DNA of 22,896 bases from a virus: IMG/VR virus record IMGVR_UViG_3300030098_005444, positions 1 through 22,896 of that record; one strand, written 5' to 3'. Shown here piece after piece: positions 8,354 to 15,441 of this stretch. The stretch's first letter is position 1, and each line of letters begins with the position of its first letter. Below the pieces are notes generated by a model. The model searched no databases. It had not been told where the DNA came from and was given only the letters and a program-made list of their open reading frames with translations. The position numbers were made by a program, and so were the translations under genes.

Positions 8354-8645
8354 ACTCATTAATAAAATCCCAATCTAATTCACTTATTCCTAAAGCTCTA
8401 TAAAAATTTTCATCAGTTCCGAAACAAGCATCCAAATTATATTCTAATGCTTTCTCAATCATTTGATATAACCCATCTTTCTCCTCATCAGTTACATTCT
8501 TTAATTCCTCAACCAAATCTACACTTTTCCTGGCAACCTTAATGACCTTTACAATCCTTTCAGTTACCTCATCGAAATGCTTCTTAGATTGCAATTTTCG
8601 CTGTTTTGTGGTATCATCTTTGCATATGCGAATTTCCTTTGTCAT
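8352..8645 (-). CDS. small helical acidic protein, unknown
   Basis: This 97-residue soluble protein is basic at the N-terminus and acidic, helical in the rest (LVEELKNVTDEEKDGLYQMIEKALEY). ATG 8645 has GGAGG seven bases upstream. The complementary plus strand encodes the opposite-direction RusA gene, which starts at 8626, so the first 20 bases overlap divergently. The RusA promoter also lies within this coding sequence, making transcriptional interference likely. No family recognised. Confidence 0.55.
   Translation of the reverse strand: MTKEIRICKDDTTKQRKLQSKKHFDEVTERIVKVIKVARKSVDLVEELKNVTDEEKDGLYQMIEKALEYNLDACFGTDENFYRALGISELDWDFINE
8589..8617 (+). promoter_or_regulatory. sigma-70-type extended -10 promoter for rusA
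   Basis: TTGCAA (8589-8594) is followed by a 17-base spacer and TATCAT (8612-8617). TGG sits immediately before the -10, which is the extended -10 signature TGn. A start about seven bases on would fall near 8624, two bases before the rusA ATG at 8626, giving a leaderless or nearly leaderless mRNA. There is no ribosome binding site before this ATG, which is consistent. Confidence 0.5.
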
Positions 8646-11043: not shown

Positions 11044-11316
11044 TTAAAATCCAATACAATAAAAGCTCATATTATCTTCAAAATCAATAGTATGGTCGTT
11101 TATTTTATCATATAAATACCATTCAAAGTCTTTTTGATATAAATGCAATCTTGCGGGTAACAAATCATTTATACAATTCTTAGTATGCCTAGTACGCCAA
11201 CCTCCTGAATTTAATTTAATATTATTGCCCTCTCTAATAAAAATAACTGTATTATAAAGTTGTGCAATAGTCTGACCTTCATGGTTAACTACATTTAACC
11301 CTGCTCTTTTTTTCAT
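11044..11316 (-). CDS. conserved-type small phage protein (SGGWRT-H-TK motif)
   Basis: This 90-residue protein has the pattern Y-x-T-V-x-F then LNSGGWRTRHTKNCIND, which I recognise from many small uncharacterised phage early proteins. It is predicted beta-rich. Its ATG overlaps the stop of the upstream gene by one base (TAATG). Function unknown, but it belongs to a group often seen near phage early promoters. Confidence 0.65.
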   Translation of the reverse strand: MKKRAGLNVVNHEGQTIAQLYNTVIFIREGNNIKLNSGGWRTRHTKNCINDLLPARLHLYQKDFEWYLYDKINDHTIDFEDNMSFYCIGF

Positions 11317-11723
11317 TACTCACCTCCATTAAATGTATAATATTTATCAGTAATAGGACAACGACTCCAATTATCTCCAATAAGCTTTTTATCAGTTAAA
11401 ACCAACTTACCTAAATTAGTTGATTCACCATAATGAGGTATTAGTGTACCATTCCTATCCGAGTCTACTACAACGAAAGCCTCCTGATCAAATAAGTCAG
11501 CAAGTGCAATTCCAAAGCTGCGAGCCTCTTTAACAGTGTCCGTTGTAACTAAATAACTTAACTCTGTTTGCCCTTTCCATGAACCAATTAACGTTTTAAA
11601 TGGCAAATTCATTGCAGTTAATTCGTGCTCTAATTTAATAGAGTTGTCTACGTCATTAACATCTCCTTTAAATGCCGAAACGATGAAAAATGGCTTCTTA
11701 GGTTGTTTGTTAAGTGTTCTCAT
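11316..11723 (-). CDS. hypothetical phage protein, DUF3293-like pattern
   Basis: This 135-residue soluble alpha/beta protein shows FFIVSAFKGD, then Asn27 and a helix, IGSWKGQTELSYLV, and ALADLFDQEAFVVVD. That is a weak resemblance to the DUF3293 layout (SAF-N-helix-G-W-E-S-x-V-helix-Q-A). It starts directly after the TAA of the HTH-like gene, in the same frame, with AAAGGAGG upstream. Function unknown. Confidence 0.6.
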   Translation of the reverse strand: MRTLNKQPKKPFFIVSAFKGDVNDVDNSIKLEHELTAMNLPFKTLIGSWKGQTELSYLVTTDTVKEARSFGIALADLFDQEAFVVVDSDRNGTLIPHYGESTNLGKLVLTDKKLIGDNWSRCPITDKYYTFNGGE

Positions 11724-11912
11724 TTAAATACCTCCTTTAAGGTTCTCGTTATTAATTTCCTTACCTATTTTAATAAGTTTTAAAGCTTTATTAGTAGACA
11801 TACCATAAAACTCCGCAAACTTTTCAACAGTGAGGAAATTATTCAAATAATCTAAATATAATAGCTCTAATTTATATAAAGCACTATTAATCTCTCTCAT
11901 TTAAATACCTCC
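11718..11912. repeat. 18-bp direct repeat over two ribosome binding sites
   Basis: TCTCATTTAAATACCTCC occurs at 11718-11735 and 11895-11912. On the minus strand each copy is GGAGGTATTTAAATGAGA: the ribosome binding site, the stop of the upstream ORF (GGI-stop) and the start of the next. It looks like a duplicated translation start cassette. Confidence 0.7.
11724..11900 (-). CDS. small helix-turn-helix-like protein
   Basis: A 58-residue frame starts at ATG 11900, with GGAGG seven bases upstream. Residues 23-48 (LTVEKFAEFYGMSTNKALKLIKIGKE) fit a helix-turn-helix of the kind found in small phage regulators. It is the second gene after the leftward promoters, so an early regulatory role is reasonable. 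Its TAA is immediately followed, in frame, by the ATG of the 135-residue gene. Confidence 0.6.
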   Translation of the reverse strand: MREINSALYKLELLYLDYLNNFLTVEKFAEFYGMSTNKALKLIKIGKEINNENLKGGI

Positions 11913-11975
11913 AATGGTTGAAATTGATAATAAAAGAATGTAAACAAAACTAAAAACTTTAATACATTTAATCAT
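11901..11975 (-). CDS. 24-residue membrane peptide, first of the leftward operon
   Basis: ATG 11975 has a perfect GGAGG five bases upstream and is the first start codon after the leftward sigma-54-like promoter at 12027-12042. The peptide is MIKCIKVFSFVYILLLSIST plus four residues, essentially one transmembrane helix. It may be a real mini-protein or a leader peptide coupling translation to the next gene, whose ATG directly follows its stop. Confidence 0.4.
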   Translation of the reverse strand: MIKCIKVFSFVYILLLSISTIGGI

Positions 11976-12026
11976 GTTTTCCTCCAGTAAATAAAGCATA
12001 ACAAATTTTTAAATGAATTAATACAA

Positions 12027-12042
12027 CGCAAAAATCGTGCCA
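12027..12042 (-). promoter_or_regulatory. sigma-54 (RpoN) promoter P1, leftward
   Basis: The minus strand reads TGGCACG-ATTT-TTGCG, matching the TGGCACG-N4-TTGCW consensus except for the last base. The predicted start is about 12016, some 40 bases before the first leftward gene (ATG 11975). It forms a back-to-back pair with P3. Confidence 0.65.
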
Positions 12043-12074
12043 CAACAAAAAAATGCATAAAAATGTAAATTAAT

Positions 12075-12090
12075 TGGTACGAAACTTGCA
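12075..12090 (+). promoter_or_regulatory. sigma-54 (RpoN) promoter P3, rightward
   Basis: TGGTACG-AAAC-TTGCA matches the consensus except for one T (common alternative Y) in the -24 element. The predicted start is near 12101. Its -24 box is 32 bases from that of P1, giving a divergent pair. Confidence 0.6.
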
Positions 12091-12205
12091 TAATAAATAT
12101 ATTTCACCCGCAAAATTACATATAAAGGATTGCAAGATCTATGCCAGAAATGTACGTCCCCTTCCCACGCGCAAATAAGCCATAAATAAATCTTATTGAC
12201 ATCAC

Positions 12206-12221
12206 TGGTACTAAACTTGCT
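12206..12221 (+). promoter_or_regulatory. sigma-54 (RpoN) promoter P4, rightward
   Basis: TGGTACT-AAAC-TTGCT keeps the GG and GC cores at exact spacing. The predicted start near 12232 falls inside P2, which faces it. An overlapping TTGACA (12196) with GCTAAT (12219) at 17 bases could also act as a sigma-70 promoter. Confidence 0.5.
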
Positions 12222-12223
12222 AA

Positions 12224-12239
12224 TGCAAACATCGTGCCA
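12224..12239 (-). promoter_or_regulatory. sigma-54 (RpoN) promoter P2, leftward, perfect consensus
   Basis: The minus strand reads TGGCACG-ATGT-TTGCA, matching every specified base of TGGCACG-N4-TTGCW. The predicted start near 12213 lies within P4, so only one of the two can be used at a time. Confidence 0.7.
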
Positions 12240-12374
12240 ATCATGCCCCCATGGAAAAAAGCACCCCCGCGAAATATGTTGAATTAACTATATAATATAT
12301 ATAGACTTACACCTATTTTTCCCGCAGCAAACACCCCCCGCTAACTAGCTGAAAAGCCGAAACCCCGCGCGCAA

Positions 12375-12408
12375 ATTTTAAAAAAGAGCGAAGCGATTTT
12401 TTTAAAAT
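12375..12408. terminator. bidirectional hairpin with GCGAAGC cap (terminator or attenuator)
   Basis: Arms ATTTTAAAAAA (12375-12385) and TTTTTTAAAAT (12398-12408) form an 11-bp AT stem. The loop holds GCGAAGC (12388-12394), known as an exceptionally stable mini-hairpin in DNA. T-runs flank it on both strands. It lies between the rightward sigma-54-like promoters and the first rightward gene, so it could insulate or attenuate. Confidence 0.45.
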
Positions 12409-12436
12409 ATATTCCCAATCTTTTTCCAAGATTTTC

Positions 12437-12465
12437 TTGACTTTTTACTATGGGTATGATAAGGT
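12437..12465 (+). promoter_or_regulatory. sigma-70-like promoter before the rightward block
   Basis: TTGACT (12437-12442) is 17 bases from TAAGGT (12460-12465). A better -10 hexamer TATGAT (12455-12460) sits only 12 bases away. Either way the mRNA would start close to the ATG at 12472. The -35 is good, the -10 ambiguous. Confidence 0.35.
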
Positions 12466-12471
12466 TTACGG

Positions 12472-12802: not shown

Positions 12803-13339
12803 ATGGGAAAAGGTAAAACTTCAAAATACGATTTAAAAACGGCAAAAGAATTATACATGTCTTTTAAGCCACCTAGAGAAATAGCAGAAACTATGGATAT
12901 GCCGTACAAAACTTTAATGTACCATATTGCAAAGTGGAAGGATGAGCGTTCTTTAATGAGAAATGAACTACTTAGAGAACTTACTGAAAATAAAAGTGCC
13001 ATTCTTTCTTCATTGGTAGGTAACTCATTGGAATGCTTAGATCGCGCTATTGCTGATTTAAAGCATAGAGGTACACCCCCTACCATAAAAGAGGCTAGAT
13101 GGATTGCTAACATTGTAACCGAACTTGATAAAATAGTTAGGTTAGATGAAGGCACTCCTACAGATATAATAGCAGAACACAAACCTTCAACCATAATTGA
13201 ATTGAAGGATAAACTTAAACGCGATCCTTTCTATCTGGAGGATGCAAATTACAGGGAGATTACTAATGAAAAAACTACTACTGATCCTACTTCTGATGTC
13301 GAGTCTAGCAATGGGCGAGACAAAGGAGATAAAGAGTAA
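12803..13339 (+). CDS. terS: terminase small subunit (HTH DNA-binding)
   Basis: From ATG 12803 the protein is 178 residues. The basic N-terminus carries a helix-turn-helix (PREIAETMDMPYKTLMYHIAKWKDER, about residues 24-49), followed by helices and a disordered acidic tail. That is the layout of phage small terminases, which recognise the packaging site. It sits two genes before the large terminase. The start follows the previous stop by one base without a ribosome binding site, so reinitiation is likely; an in-frame GTG at 12761 is less attractive. The last 74 bases overlap the protease gene in another frame, encoding its signal peptide. Confidence 0.65.
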   Translation: MGKGKTSKYDLKTAKELYMSFKPPREIAETMDMPYKTLMYHIAKWKDERSLMRNELLRELTENKSAILSSLVGNSLECLDRAIADLKHRGTPPTIKEARWIANIVTELDKIVRLDEGTPTDIIAEHKPSTIIELKDKLKRDPFYLEDANYREITNEKTTTDPTSDVESSNGRDKGDKE

Positions 13340-13967
13340 ACAAATTTTATTGACTGAGTATAATAGCGTTTTACTTAAAGGTGCTATAAATTTTAAATCG
13401 GCTACTAGCTTTACAAACAGACTATTAGATTTAAGCGCATCAATAAGATTAACAGATACTATTTACATTGTAATTGACTCTCCAGGAGGTTCAATTTATG
13501 CTGGTCTATCACTAATATCTGCAATACAATCTATTCCTCAAAAAGTAGAATGTATTTCCCTATTTTCAGCTTCCATGGCTCATGGTCTTTTGCAAGCTTG
13601 TCCAGGTAAAAGATATATTGATGGTAATACTGGAGTATCTATGATTCATAGAGCTAGAGGCGGCTTTTTTGGACAATTTAATAATGGTGAAGTTGAATCC
13701 CAATTAAAGTTGTGGAAAGGTATTGTATCTAGTATGGAAATTAGAAATGCTAATAGAATGAATTATAGTTTAGAAGAATATAGAAAGCGATCTAAAGATG
13801 AATGGTGGTGTTCAGGTTATAAATGTGTAAAAGAAAGATTTGTAGATGGATTAGCTAATATTAGATGTGGTAAAGATTTACATAGAGTTAAAGTTAAAGT
13901 TAATAAAAATTACTATTATTCAGCTTGCCCTTTAGTAAGTGGATATATGAGATATGAATCTTATTAG
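13266..13967 (+). CDS. secreted ClpP-like serine protease
   Basis: ATG 13266 (AGGGAG seven bases upstream) gives 233 residues beginning with a signal peptide, MKKLLLILLLMSSLAMGE. The rest has the ClpP/crotonase-like protease fold: DSPGGSI (71-77), nucleophile Ser103 in SASMAHG, His128 in VSMIHRARGG, and a probable Asp178 before FVDGL. Six cysteines (96, 112, 182, 187, 201 and near 228) fit an oxidising, extracytoplasmic location. ClpP-like prohead proteases are common beside terminase and portal genes, but they lack signal peptides. This one may instead act in the periplasm or envelope. The last 14 bases overlap the large terminase start. Confidence 0.75.
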   Translation: MKKLLLILLLMSSLAMGETKEIKSKQILLTEYNSVLLKGAINFKSATSFTNRLLDLSASIRLTDTIYIVIDSPGGSIYAGLSLISAIQSIPQKVECISLFSASMAHGLLQACPGKRYIDGNTGVSMIHRARGGFFGQFNNGEVESQLKLWKGIVSSMEIRNANRMNYSLEEYRKRSKDEWWCSGYKCVKERFVDGLANIRCGKDLHRVKVKVNKNYYYSACPLVSGYMRYESY

Positions 13968-15441
13968 TTTATCTCCCTCAGATAAATTATATCTCCAAAT
14001 AATGGATGATTTGCATTCAAATTGGAATCCTCACCCTGGTCAAGTCAAGGTGGGGATGCCTCTTATTAAAAAAGATGTAAACACCCTATTTATACAGTGT
14101 GGGCGAAAATGGGGTAAAACCGATTTTGCCATTTATTTGTTATGGAGACATGCACTTTTAAATCCAGGTTCAACTTGCTATTACATTACACCCGAACTTT
14201 CGCACGGTAGAGAAATTATTTGGCATAATAGTAGGCTTACACAATTTGGTAGAGAAAGAGATGACATGGGACGTATTGTACCAGGAGGAGAAGAACCATT
14301 ACGCAAATACATTAAACATGTATCAAACGTAGATTCTAGGCTAACTTTAAAAAACGGATCTACTATAAAAATTGTTGGTTCTGAAAACTGGGCAGCAGCT
14401 AACGGTCTAACACCAGATTTTGTAGTATATGATGAATTTAAAGTTTTTCACACACAATTTCACAACGAAATGAATCCAAACCGTATTGTTAGGAAGGCTC
14501 CCTTAGTAATTATTGGGACGCCTCCTAAACCTGGAGATAGAAATGCCGAACAATACCTCGAATTCGCGGAAGAATGCACAAATAGGCGTGATGCGTTTCA
14601 CATTATCGCCTCATCTTACGATAACCCTTTTACACCCAGTGATGAAATTGACCGTGAGATCGAAAAATTACGGTTACGTGGTGAAGATGATGTCATCGAA
14701 CGAGAATATTTTGGAAAAATTGCAGTGGGAGGACGGAACGCTATTTTCCCCATGTTCGACAAAAGTCAAATAAAACCTCATAAGGAGTTATTAAATGCAA
14801 TTACTAGAGATCGCAAAAAATTGGATTGGTTCTGTATTACTGATCCTGGCTCAACTACTTGTTTCGCTGTTTTACTTGGTTGCATTAATCCTTATACAAA
14901 GCATCTCTATATTATGGACGAAATCTACGAAGTTAATCAAGAAAATACTACCGTAAGATCAATTTATCCTAGAATAGATGCAAAAATGGCAGAACTTTTT
15001 CCGCATTCATCCGTAGAAGATGACTGGTGTAAAGTTTATGATGAGGCTGCAGCTTGGTTTTCAACCGAAGTTATGCATCAATACGGCATCTATTTTATGC
15101 CTACTGCCAAACATATGAATAAAAAAGAGCATGGTTTAAGTTTAATTAAAGATCAATTAATACATGGTCTTGTATCTATTTCGGATAGATGTGAAAAATT
15201 AGTGTGGGAAATGCAAAACTATGTTAAAGATAGTAAAGGTAACATACCAAAGAAAAATGACCATTTAGTTGATTGTTGGCGATATTTAAATGCGGCTGCT
15301 AATTATAATATGATTGAAGTATTAGAAATTTTAAAACAAAAGAATGATAACGATCGTCGTTATTATAGTATGGAAGATGATTATAAAGCTTTAAAGAAAC
15401 ACGATGATTGGACCTTTAATATAATACCTTGGGAGGATTAA
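13954..15441 (+). CDS. terL: terminase large subunit (packaging ATPase-nuclease)
   Basis: This 495-residue protein has the ATPase domain with Walker A GRKWGKT (50-56) and Walker B FVVYDEF (Asp160-Glu161), then a coupling-like segment VIIGTPP (185-191). The C-terminal RNase H-like nuclease has Asp297 in ITDPGST, an acidic strand VYDEA near 380, and a final Asp in NDHLVDCWRY. It pumps DNA into the capsid and cuts concatemers. The start overlaps the protease gene by 14 bases with only a weak GGA upstream. All catalytic elements look intact. Confidence 0.95.
   Translation: MNLISLSPSDKLYLQIMDDLHSNWNPHPGQVKVGMPLIKKDVNTLFIQCGRKWGKTDFAIYLLWRHALLNPGSTCYYITPELSHGREIIWHNSRLTQFGRERDDMGRIVPGGEEPLRKYIKHVSNVDSRLTLKNGSTIKIVGSENWAAANGLTPDFVVYDEFKVFHTQFHNEMNPNRIVRKAPLVIIGTPPKPGDRNAEQYLEFAEECTNRRDAFHIIASSYDNPFTPSDEIDREIEKLRLRGEDDVIEREYFGKIAVGGRNAIFPMFDKSQIKPHKELLNAITRDRKKLDWFCITDPGSTTCFAVLLGCINPYTKHLYIMDEIYEVNQENTTVRSIYPRIDAKMAELFPHSSVEDDWCKVYDEAAAWFSTEVMHQYGIYFMPTAKHMNKKEHGLSLIKDQLIHGLVSISDRCEKLVWEMQNYVKDSKGNIPKKNDHLVDCWRYLNAAANYNMIEVLEILKQKNDNDRRYYSMEDDYKALKKHDDWTFNIIPWED

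Follow-up and report, generated by a model that had tools for sequence, protein, structure and literature searches.

Head-to-head arrays of sigma-54-like elements at the early/late divergence of tailed phages: a putative host-dependent control region

Lytic phages are generally taught to use sigma-70, sigma factors of their own or their own polymerases for transcription. In bacteria, the RNA polymerase holoenzyme containing sigma-54 (RpoN), E-sigma54, makes stable closed complexes and requires an ATPase activator. Opposed promoters are also known in bacteria, where bidirectional sigma-70 promoters consist of two overlapping opposed promoters with starts approximately 18–20 bp apart. Operators of the lambda CII/cI type, on the other hand, are short repeated sites featuring helical phasing near early/late decision promoters, the CII site being TTGC-N6-TTGC. 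Published consensus sequences for sigma-54 promoters comprise TGGCACG-N4-TTGC (PMC3224663), TGGCAC-N5-7-TTGCT (PMC12316311) and, for the E. coli RpoN holoenzyme, TGGCACnnTTnTTGC (PMC8743547); furthermore, repression was reported for some E. coli sigma-54 binding sites (PMC4551910). A prior description of phage sigma-54 arrays was not found in the open-access literature.

The window, i.e., the whole stretch of DNA analyzed in this study, is one complete viral contig of 22.9 kb with approximately 33% GC and originates from an uncultured, marine tailed phage. Its left block is transcribed leftward and encodes DNA polymerase and primase, with a SAM lyase gene in first position, whereas the right block is transcribed rightward and encodes a metallopeptidase-like protein, a presumed TerS, a ClpP-like protease, TerL, portal and capsid. 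The genes and the region relevant for the following sections are:

11724..11900, minus strand: leftward gene of 58 amino acids with a weak HTH_17 match, a candidate regulator that is disfavoured
11901..12471 (571 bases), no strand: divergent control region in the intergenic space that separates the leftward replication/early block from the rightward terminase/virion block
12803..13339, plus strand: presumed terminase small subunit with a helix-turn-helix-like N-terminus, presumed from position and sequence (no Pfam or PHROG match)
13954-15441, plus strand: terL, located 3' of the presumed TerS gene

The early leftward gene at 11316-11723 was identified as an S-adenosylmethionine lyase (PF23780), a function of the anti-restriction type also known from phage T3, and ArdC-type anti-restriction genes adjoin arrays in three other phage groups. 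A short leftward ORF (MIKCIKVFSFVYILLLSISTIGGI, 11901-11975) with a good ribosome-binding site was also noticed 5' of the HTH gene.

Within the divergent region, the following sites were found, matches being scored against the pattern TGGYAC-N5-TTGC:

12027-12042, minus strand: site A, TGGCACGATTTTTGCG, exact match, predicted sigma-54 start at ~12016, kept in relatives L001, L005, L006 and L008
12075-12090, plus strand: site B, TGGTACGAAACTTGCA, exact match, predicted start at ~12101, back-to-back with A at an offset of 48
12131-12146, minus strand: site E, TGGCATAGATCTTGCA, one mismatch, absent from the original prediction
12206-12221, plus strand: site C, TGGTACTAAACTTGCT, exact match
12224-12239, minus strand: site D, TGGCACGATGTTTGCA, exact match
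12206..12239 (34 bp), no strand: head-to-head pair C(+)/D(-), TGGTACTAAACTTGCT-AA-TGCAAACATCGTGCCA

The original prediction had listed four sigma-54-like sites with exact spacing, and their letters and positions were all verified. Its claim that they are confined to the gap between the two blocks also held, since sites A, B, C and D are the only exact matches in the 22.9 kb window; words with one mismatch outside the gap (3216, 8609, 10835, 11601, and 20859) are scattered. A recurring word of the early block, TGGTATGATTCTTGCA, was set aside as being codon-constrained (window position 8609 lies within an ORF). In the comparison with shuffled sequence that had been proposed, 0.02 matches were expected in the shuffled window and none of 100 dinucleotide shuffles gave four or more sites, while a Markov model predicted 0.0026 sites for the 571-base gap, inside which all five sites were found. 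The predicted starts of pair C/D, 12232(+) and 12213(-), are divergent and 19 bp apart.

The array is flanked by further elements, the sigma-70 promoter assignments in the window family having been made by eye:

11995..12004, minus strand: extended -10 sigma-70-like promoter, TGTTATGCT, serving the early leftward genes, immediately downstream of site A
12246..12339, no strand: C-tracts (12246-12250, 12264-12268, and 12334-12339) flanking the array on its late side
12375..12408, no strand: AT-rich hairpin with the conserved loop GAGCGAAGCG, in the interval separating the array from the late gene, its stem varying among relatives
12437..12465, plus strand: sigma-70-like promoter TTGACT-N17-TAAGGT, immediately 5' of the first rightward gene

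The leftward promoter reads TGTTATGAT in relatives L003 and L008. The rightward promoter is conserved in relatives as TTGACA-N17-TANNNT, with TTGACA in most of them, and its predicted start at ~12472 falls on the A of the ATG, so that the message of the first rightward gene may be leaderless. A search against Rfam yielded no match.

To place the cluster among related phages, 57 IMG/VR loci were collected by terminase homology. The homologous gap is located approximately 1.5–2.3 kb upstream of terL; its motif density is 2.07 per kb vs. 0.04 per kb elsewhere, corresponding to an approximately 54-fold difference. Nearly all relatives with a terminase identity of ≥72% and a sequenced gap retain at least one site, the exception being L018. 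Pair C/D is retained in L004, L005, L008, and L046, the last of which still has its head-to-head pair at approximately 50% terminase identity; the more distant relatives L042-L044, L052, L053, and L056 were without sites. The spacing is invariant, as TGGCA-N6-TTGC was counted 54 times in the relatives' gaps, whereas none of the other spacings from 2 to 11 occurred at all. Two MAGs with distant terminase relatives (37–39%) contain rpoN, and no site was detected in the stretches checked. Likewise, no array was found in the regions analyzed of the cultured terminase relatives Caulobacter GB2A, Roseobacter CRP-6, Brevundimonas Polewnik, Stenotrophomonas ANB28, and Alteromonas R9Y3, or in the whole genomes of Pseudoalteromonas H40/1 and Vibrio 1.030.O.

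Pattern scans of viral contigs revealed that the geometry is not restricted to the window family. Two elements head-to-head and 1–4 bp apart were detected at no fewer than 80 loci, whereas the scrambled version of the pattern and the versions with the inner spacing changed by +1 or -1 each gave zero matches in the same collection. Together with the shuffles, these scrambled and spacing controls exclude a chance origin of the cluster. Further scans addressed wider head-to-head pairs and back-to-back pairs, their figures referring to the matches listed. The 289 loci analyzed, being the matches listed from the three scans plus the window-family controls, were distinguished by shared flanking genes into at least 126 phage groups with GC contents of 0.30–0.66, a count that depends on flanking-gene linkage in loci of which many are fragmentary and have rough gene calls. 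In 50 array-bearing records, several hundred single sites were found in total vs. a single match to the reversed control pattern. The head-to-head pair (spacer 1–6) was found in 0 out of 398 Pseudomonadota genomes, representing a sample of one phylum, where the viral totals are lower bounds and the densities not exactly comparable. As shown by these scans at the level of sequence patterns, head-to-head arrays form a widespread class of putative phage control region with a fixed head-to-head and back-to-back geometry.

A logo was computed from 534 sites, taking one locus for each of the 126 groups, and reads YTGGCA[C57/T41][G65/A26]R-N2-Y-TTGC-W. Its secondary positions are Y at position 0 (71%), R at position 7 (91%), R at position 8 (72%), and W at position 16 (90%); the scan patterns had left positions 0, 7, and 8 free and had partly constrained positions 6 and 16. 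The sites agree with the secondary consensus YTGGCACGRNNNTTGCW, the window family doing so at positions 7 and 8, and they contain the -24 GG and -12 GC elements with the fixed N10 spacing. The arrays thus share with bacterial sigma-54 promoters the TGGCAC-N5-TTGC element, the GG-N10-GC spacing, the secondary preferences, and also a neighbourhood in which IHF-like sites are commoner (22/126 vs. 10/190 in the background). Accordingly, the original reading of the motif as the sigma-54 consensus was borne out, with the addition of positions that it had not used, of the invariant spacing and of the conserved place in relatives. Unlike bacterial sigma-54 promoters, the phage elements are arranged in head-to-head pairs 1–5 bp apart and in alternating series of up to ten sites, are strand-neutral, and occur in phage control regions only. 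The two half-elements differ consistently, position 2 being G and position 13 being T in 99% of the sites each, which disfavours a simple direct-repeat operator.

Detailed analysis of the geometry revealed that the offsets of adjacent back-to-back sites peak at 22–25, 32–35, and 44–47, with valleys at 27–29 and 38–39, corresponding to a helical period of approximately 10.5–11, and that head-to-head offsets peak at 18. The longest arrays comprise 9–10 sites in approximately 200 bp and alternate strictly. Packing at 18–26 bp precludes binding of two holoenzymes at once unless they are on different DNA faces. Furthermore, the strand of the sites relative to the late genes is balanced (78 towards, 81 away), and the surroundings of arrays are richer in sigma-70-like promoters, which tend to point outward. 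The idea that the sites are simple promoters driving the two blocks is thus not supported: the strands are balanced, the sites are too tightly packed, and sigma-70-type promoters lie between them and the first genes in the window family and in Pseudomonas phage PAK_P4. These flanking promoters alone could be sufficient for transcription. A head-to-head pair, for its part, would serve genes on either side.

The same features would suit operators of another regulator, either phage-encoded or a host protein, whose recognition site resembles the sigma-54 element and which would occupy one face of the DNA cooperatively, flanked by divergent sigma-70 promoters, and act as an early-to-late switch. 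Strand neutrality and tight packing point in this direction, the helical phasing would suit a small cooperative protein, and the array lies between outward-pointing sigma-70-like promoters, being only 11 bp from promoter_03 in the cultured phage PAK_P4. Like lambda CII and cI type operators, the arrays are short, repeated, and helically phased; unlike those of CII, their half-elements are not alike (TGGCA vs. TTGC), and no gene for a regulator was found in the vicinity. None of the gene families in 14 related genomes of the window family tracks the sites, and beside the arrays only terminases recur. Such operators would also have to persist over GC contents of 0.30–0.66, next to unrelated terminases, while matching five secondary positions of the sigma-54 logo. 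For these reasons, and with no sigma-54 domain in 50 records, the alternative of a phage regulator's operators, already named in the original prediction, was disfavoured, and the operator reading as a whole is regarded as unlikely, even though a phage regulator might be encoded elsewhere and have diverged strongly. The neighbouring 58-amino-acid HTH gene was rejected for this role, as it occurs in one of nine site-bearing genomes. For Pseudomonas phage K5, binding of the host protein SrpA to a palindrome in a Pakpunavirus promoter was described, with the motif NTATC-N(0,9)-GATAN (PMC5945682); this motif is unrelated in sequence, and SrpA was rejected as the identity of the pair.

The very good consensus, the many sites per genome, their strand neutrality and their restriction to phages among the genomes tested would also be in line with a sponge, in which decoy sites titrate host sigma-54 after phage DNA replication and thereby silence host sigma-54 responses. 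However, a sponge needs neither the fixed position upstream of terL, where early and late genes diverge, nor the sites at several operon starts in one group (G440/L331), and the packing is ill-suited to holding many holoenzymes, making this reading improbable.

The placement of the cluster at the early/late divergence, as originally described for the window, holds across many phage groups. Of the 43 groups in whose locus terL could be recognised, 42 have the array upstream of this gene, typically 0.1–1.7 kb away, and C/G tracts across groups amount to 60 runs on the late side vs. 15 on the early side. Both observations could be expected if the repeats served in packaging (pac/cos) or as a replication origin and were bound by the small subunit of the terminase or by an initiator, and cultured phages carrying the element add two further points to this proposal. 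One of the loci (L174) is Pseudomonas phage vB_PaeM_C2-10_Ab02, a Pakpunavirus infecting P. aeruginosa, which features four more sites in its terminal repeats, two of them inside an ORF; in the T5-like Vibrio phage VspSw_1, eight sites are clustered near early genes and are accompanied by DnaA-like boxes (L401 20100-23400). On the other hand, the main Pakpunavirus pair, being the most conserved, lies approximately 12 kb from the terminal repeats, the presumed terS is present in relatives both with and without sites, and the terminases near arrays are spread over many PHROG families. DnaA boxes were not enriched near arrays (3/126 vs. 3/190 in the background), and DnaA-type origin iterons were rejected on this basis. 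A role in packaging or replication is hence considered hardly probable. The two Ab02 sites inside the terminal-repeat ORF (L410 349-643; HNH endonuclease in the PAK_P4 annotation) encode a repeated TSNN(H/R)A motif and, judged from this coding context, may be coincidences. In VspSw_1, three sites border on or overlap with start codons (ATGCCA, read on the opposite strand).

The main pair of Ab02 (80960-80993) is the counterpart of PAK_P4 55823-55856, and P. putida phage Amme-3 and P. plecoglossicida phage SYP keep the -24/-12 letters near-exactly while the N5 letters vary. The PAK_P4 record, whose annotation is partly derived from RNA-seq, contains an antisense RNA and a leftward sigma-70 promoter (promoter_03) beside the pair, and a second sigma-70 promoter points right; the RNA beside the pair is explained by the sigma-70 promoter. 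A C/T-rich block of approximately 70 bp to the right of the Pakpunavirus pair (L411 1995-2090) is conserved across the phages of P. aeruginosa, P. putida, and P. plecoglossicida above most of its surroundings. Both P. aeruginosa and Vibrio encode rpoN.

Since very different phages carry the element, sigma-54 is the simplest shared binder. Binding of host E-sigma54 at the cluster, as a control element that would make divergent phage transcription depend on the state of the host, is the function that we favour, with a probability that we place slightly above even. Host E-sigma54 would sit at the array between the early and late blocks as a closed complex, unable to open the DNA without a host enhancer-binding ATPase of the NtrC or PspF type, and, while silent, would keep the flanking sigma-70-type promoters in check or compete with them. 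Once the host activator fires, the head-to-head pair might act as one compact bidirectional promoter, which is conceivable as its predicted starts diverge by approximately 19 bp. A comparable divergence of 18–20 bp characterizes bidirectional sigma-70 promoters; unlike these, the phage pair is built of sigma-54 elements and is far more sequence-specific, and its two-strand transcription is a prediction. Early and late transcription of the phage would thereby read the nitrogen or envelope-stress state of the host. The dominant output may be firing, or else occlusion and titration; the proposed mechanism makes no choice between them.

Candidates for a phage-encoded sigma-54 or activator were rejected: no sigma-54 domain and only weak, generic AAA+ matches, none of them convincing, were obtained for the 50 array-bearing records, and no bacterial enhancer-binding protein was identified in 18 relatives. 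NtrC-type palindromes were not enriched near arrays, and a binding site for an activator was not identified. The broader proposal, namely that helically phased head-to-head sigma-54 arrays, present in more than 100 unrelated groups and in none of the sampled bacterial genomes, represent a new class of phage control element coupling the early/late switch of many lytic phages to sigma-54 and the sigma-54 activators of their hosts, is put forward tentatively, its chances appearing a little short of even. If true, infection outcome would depend on nitrogen and envelope-stress signalling, and a candidate mechanism for the effects of rpoN on phage sensitivity would be at hand. Pakpunaviruses together with P. 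aeruginosa make the sigma-54 reading directly testable; should sigma-54 turn out not to be the binder, an unknown protein shared by widely differing hosts of these phages would have to be assumed. Phage FelixO1 infects rpoN and IHF mutants of Salmonella less well, an effect credited to glutamine and RpoS (PMC8744999). The FelixO1 genome is without an array, so the rpoN effect has no bearing here and the phage was dismissed as a supporting case.

In the large phages of loci L331 (group G440) and L144, pairs are repeated at several places over a few kb. Four back-to-back pairs approximately 550–720 bp apart were observed in L331 (5077-7056), and those that were read flank a GC-rich hairpin, GCCCGAGCCGGTTCGGC.
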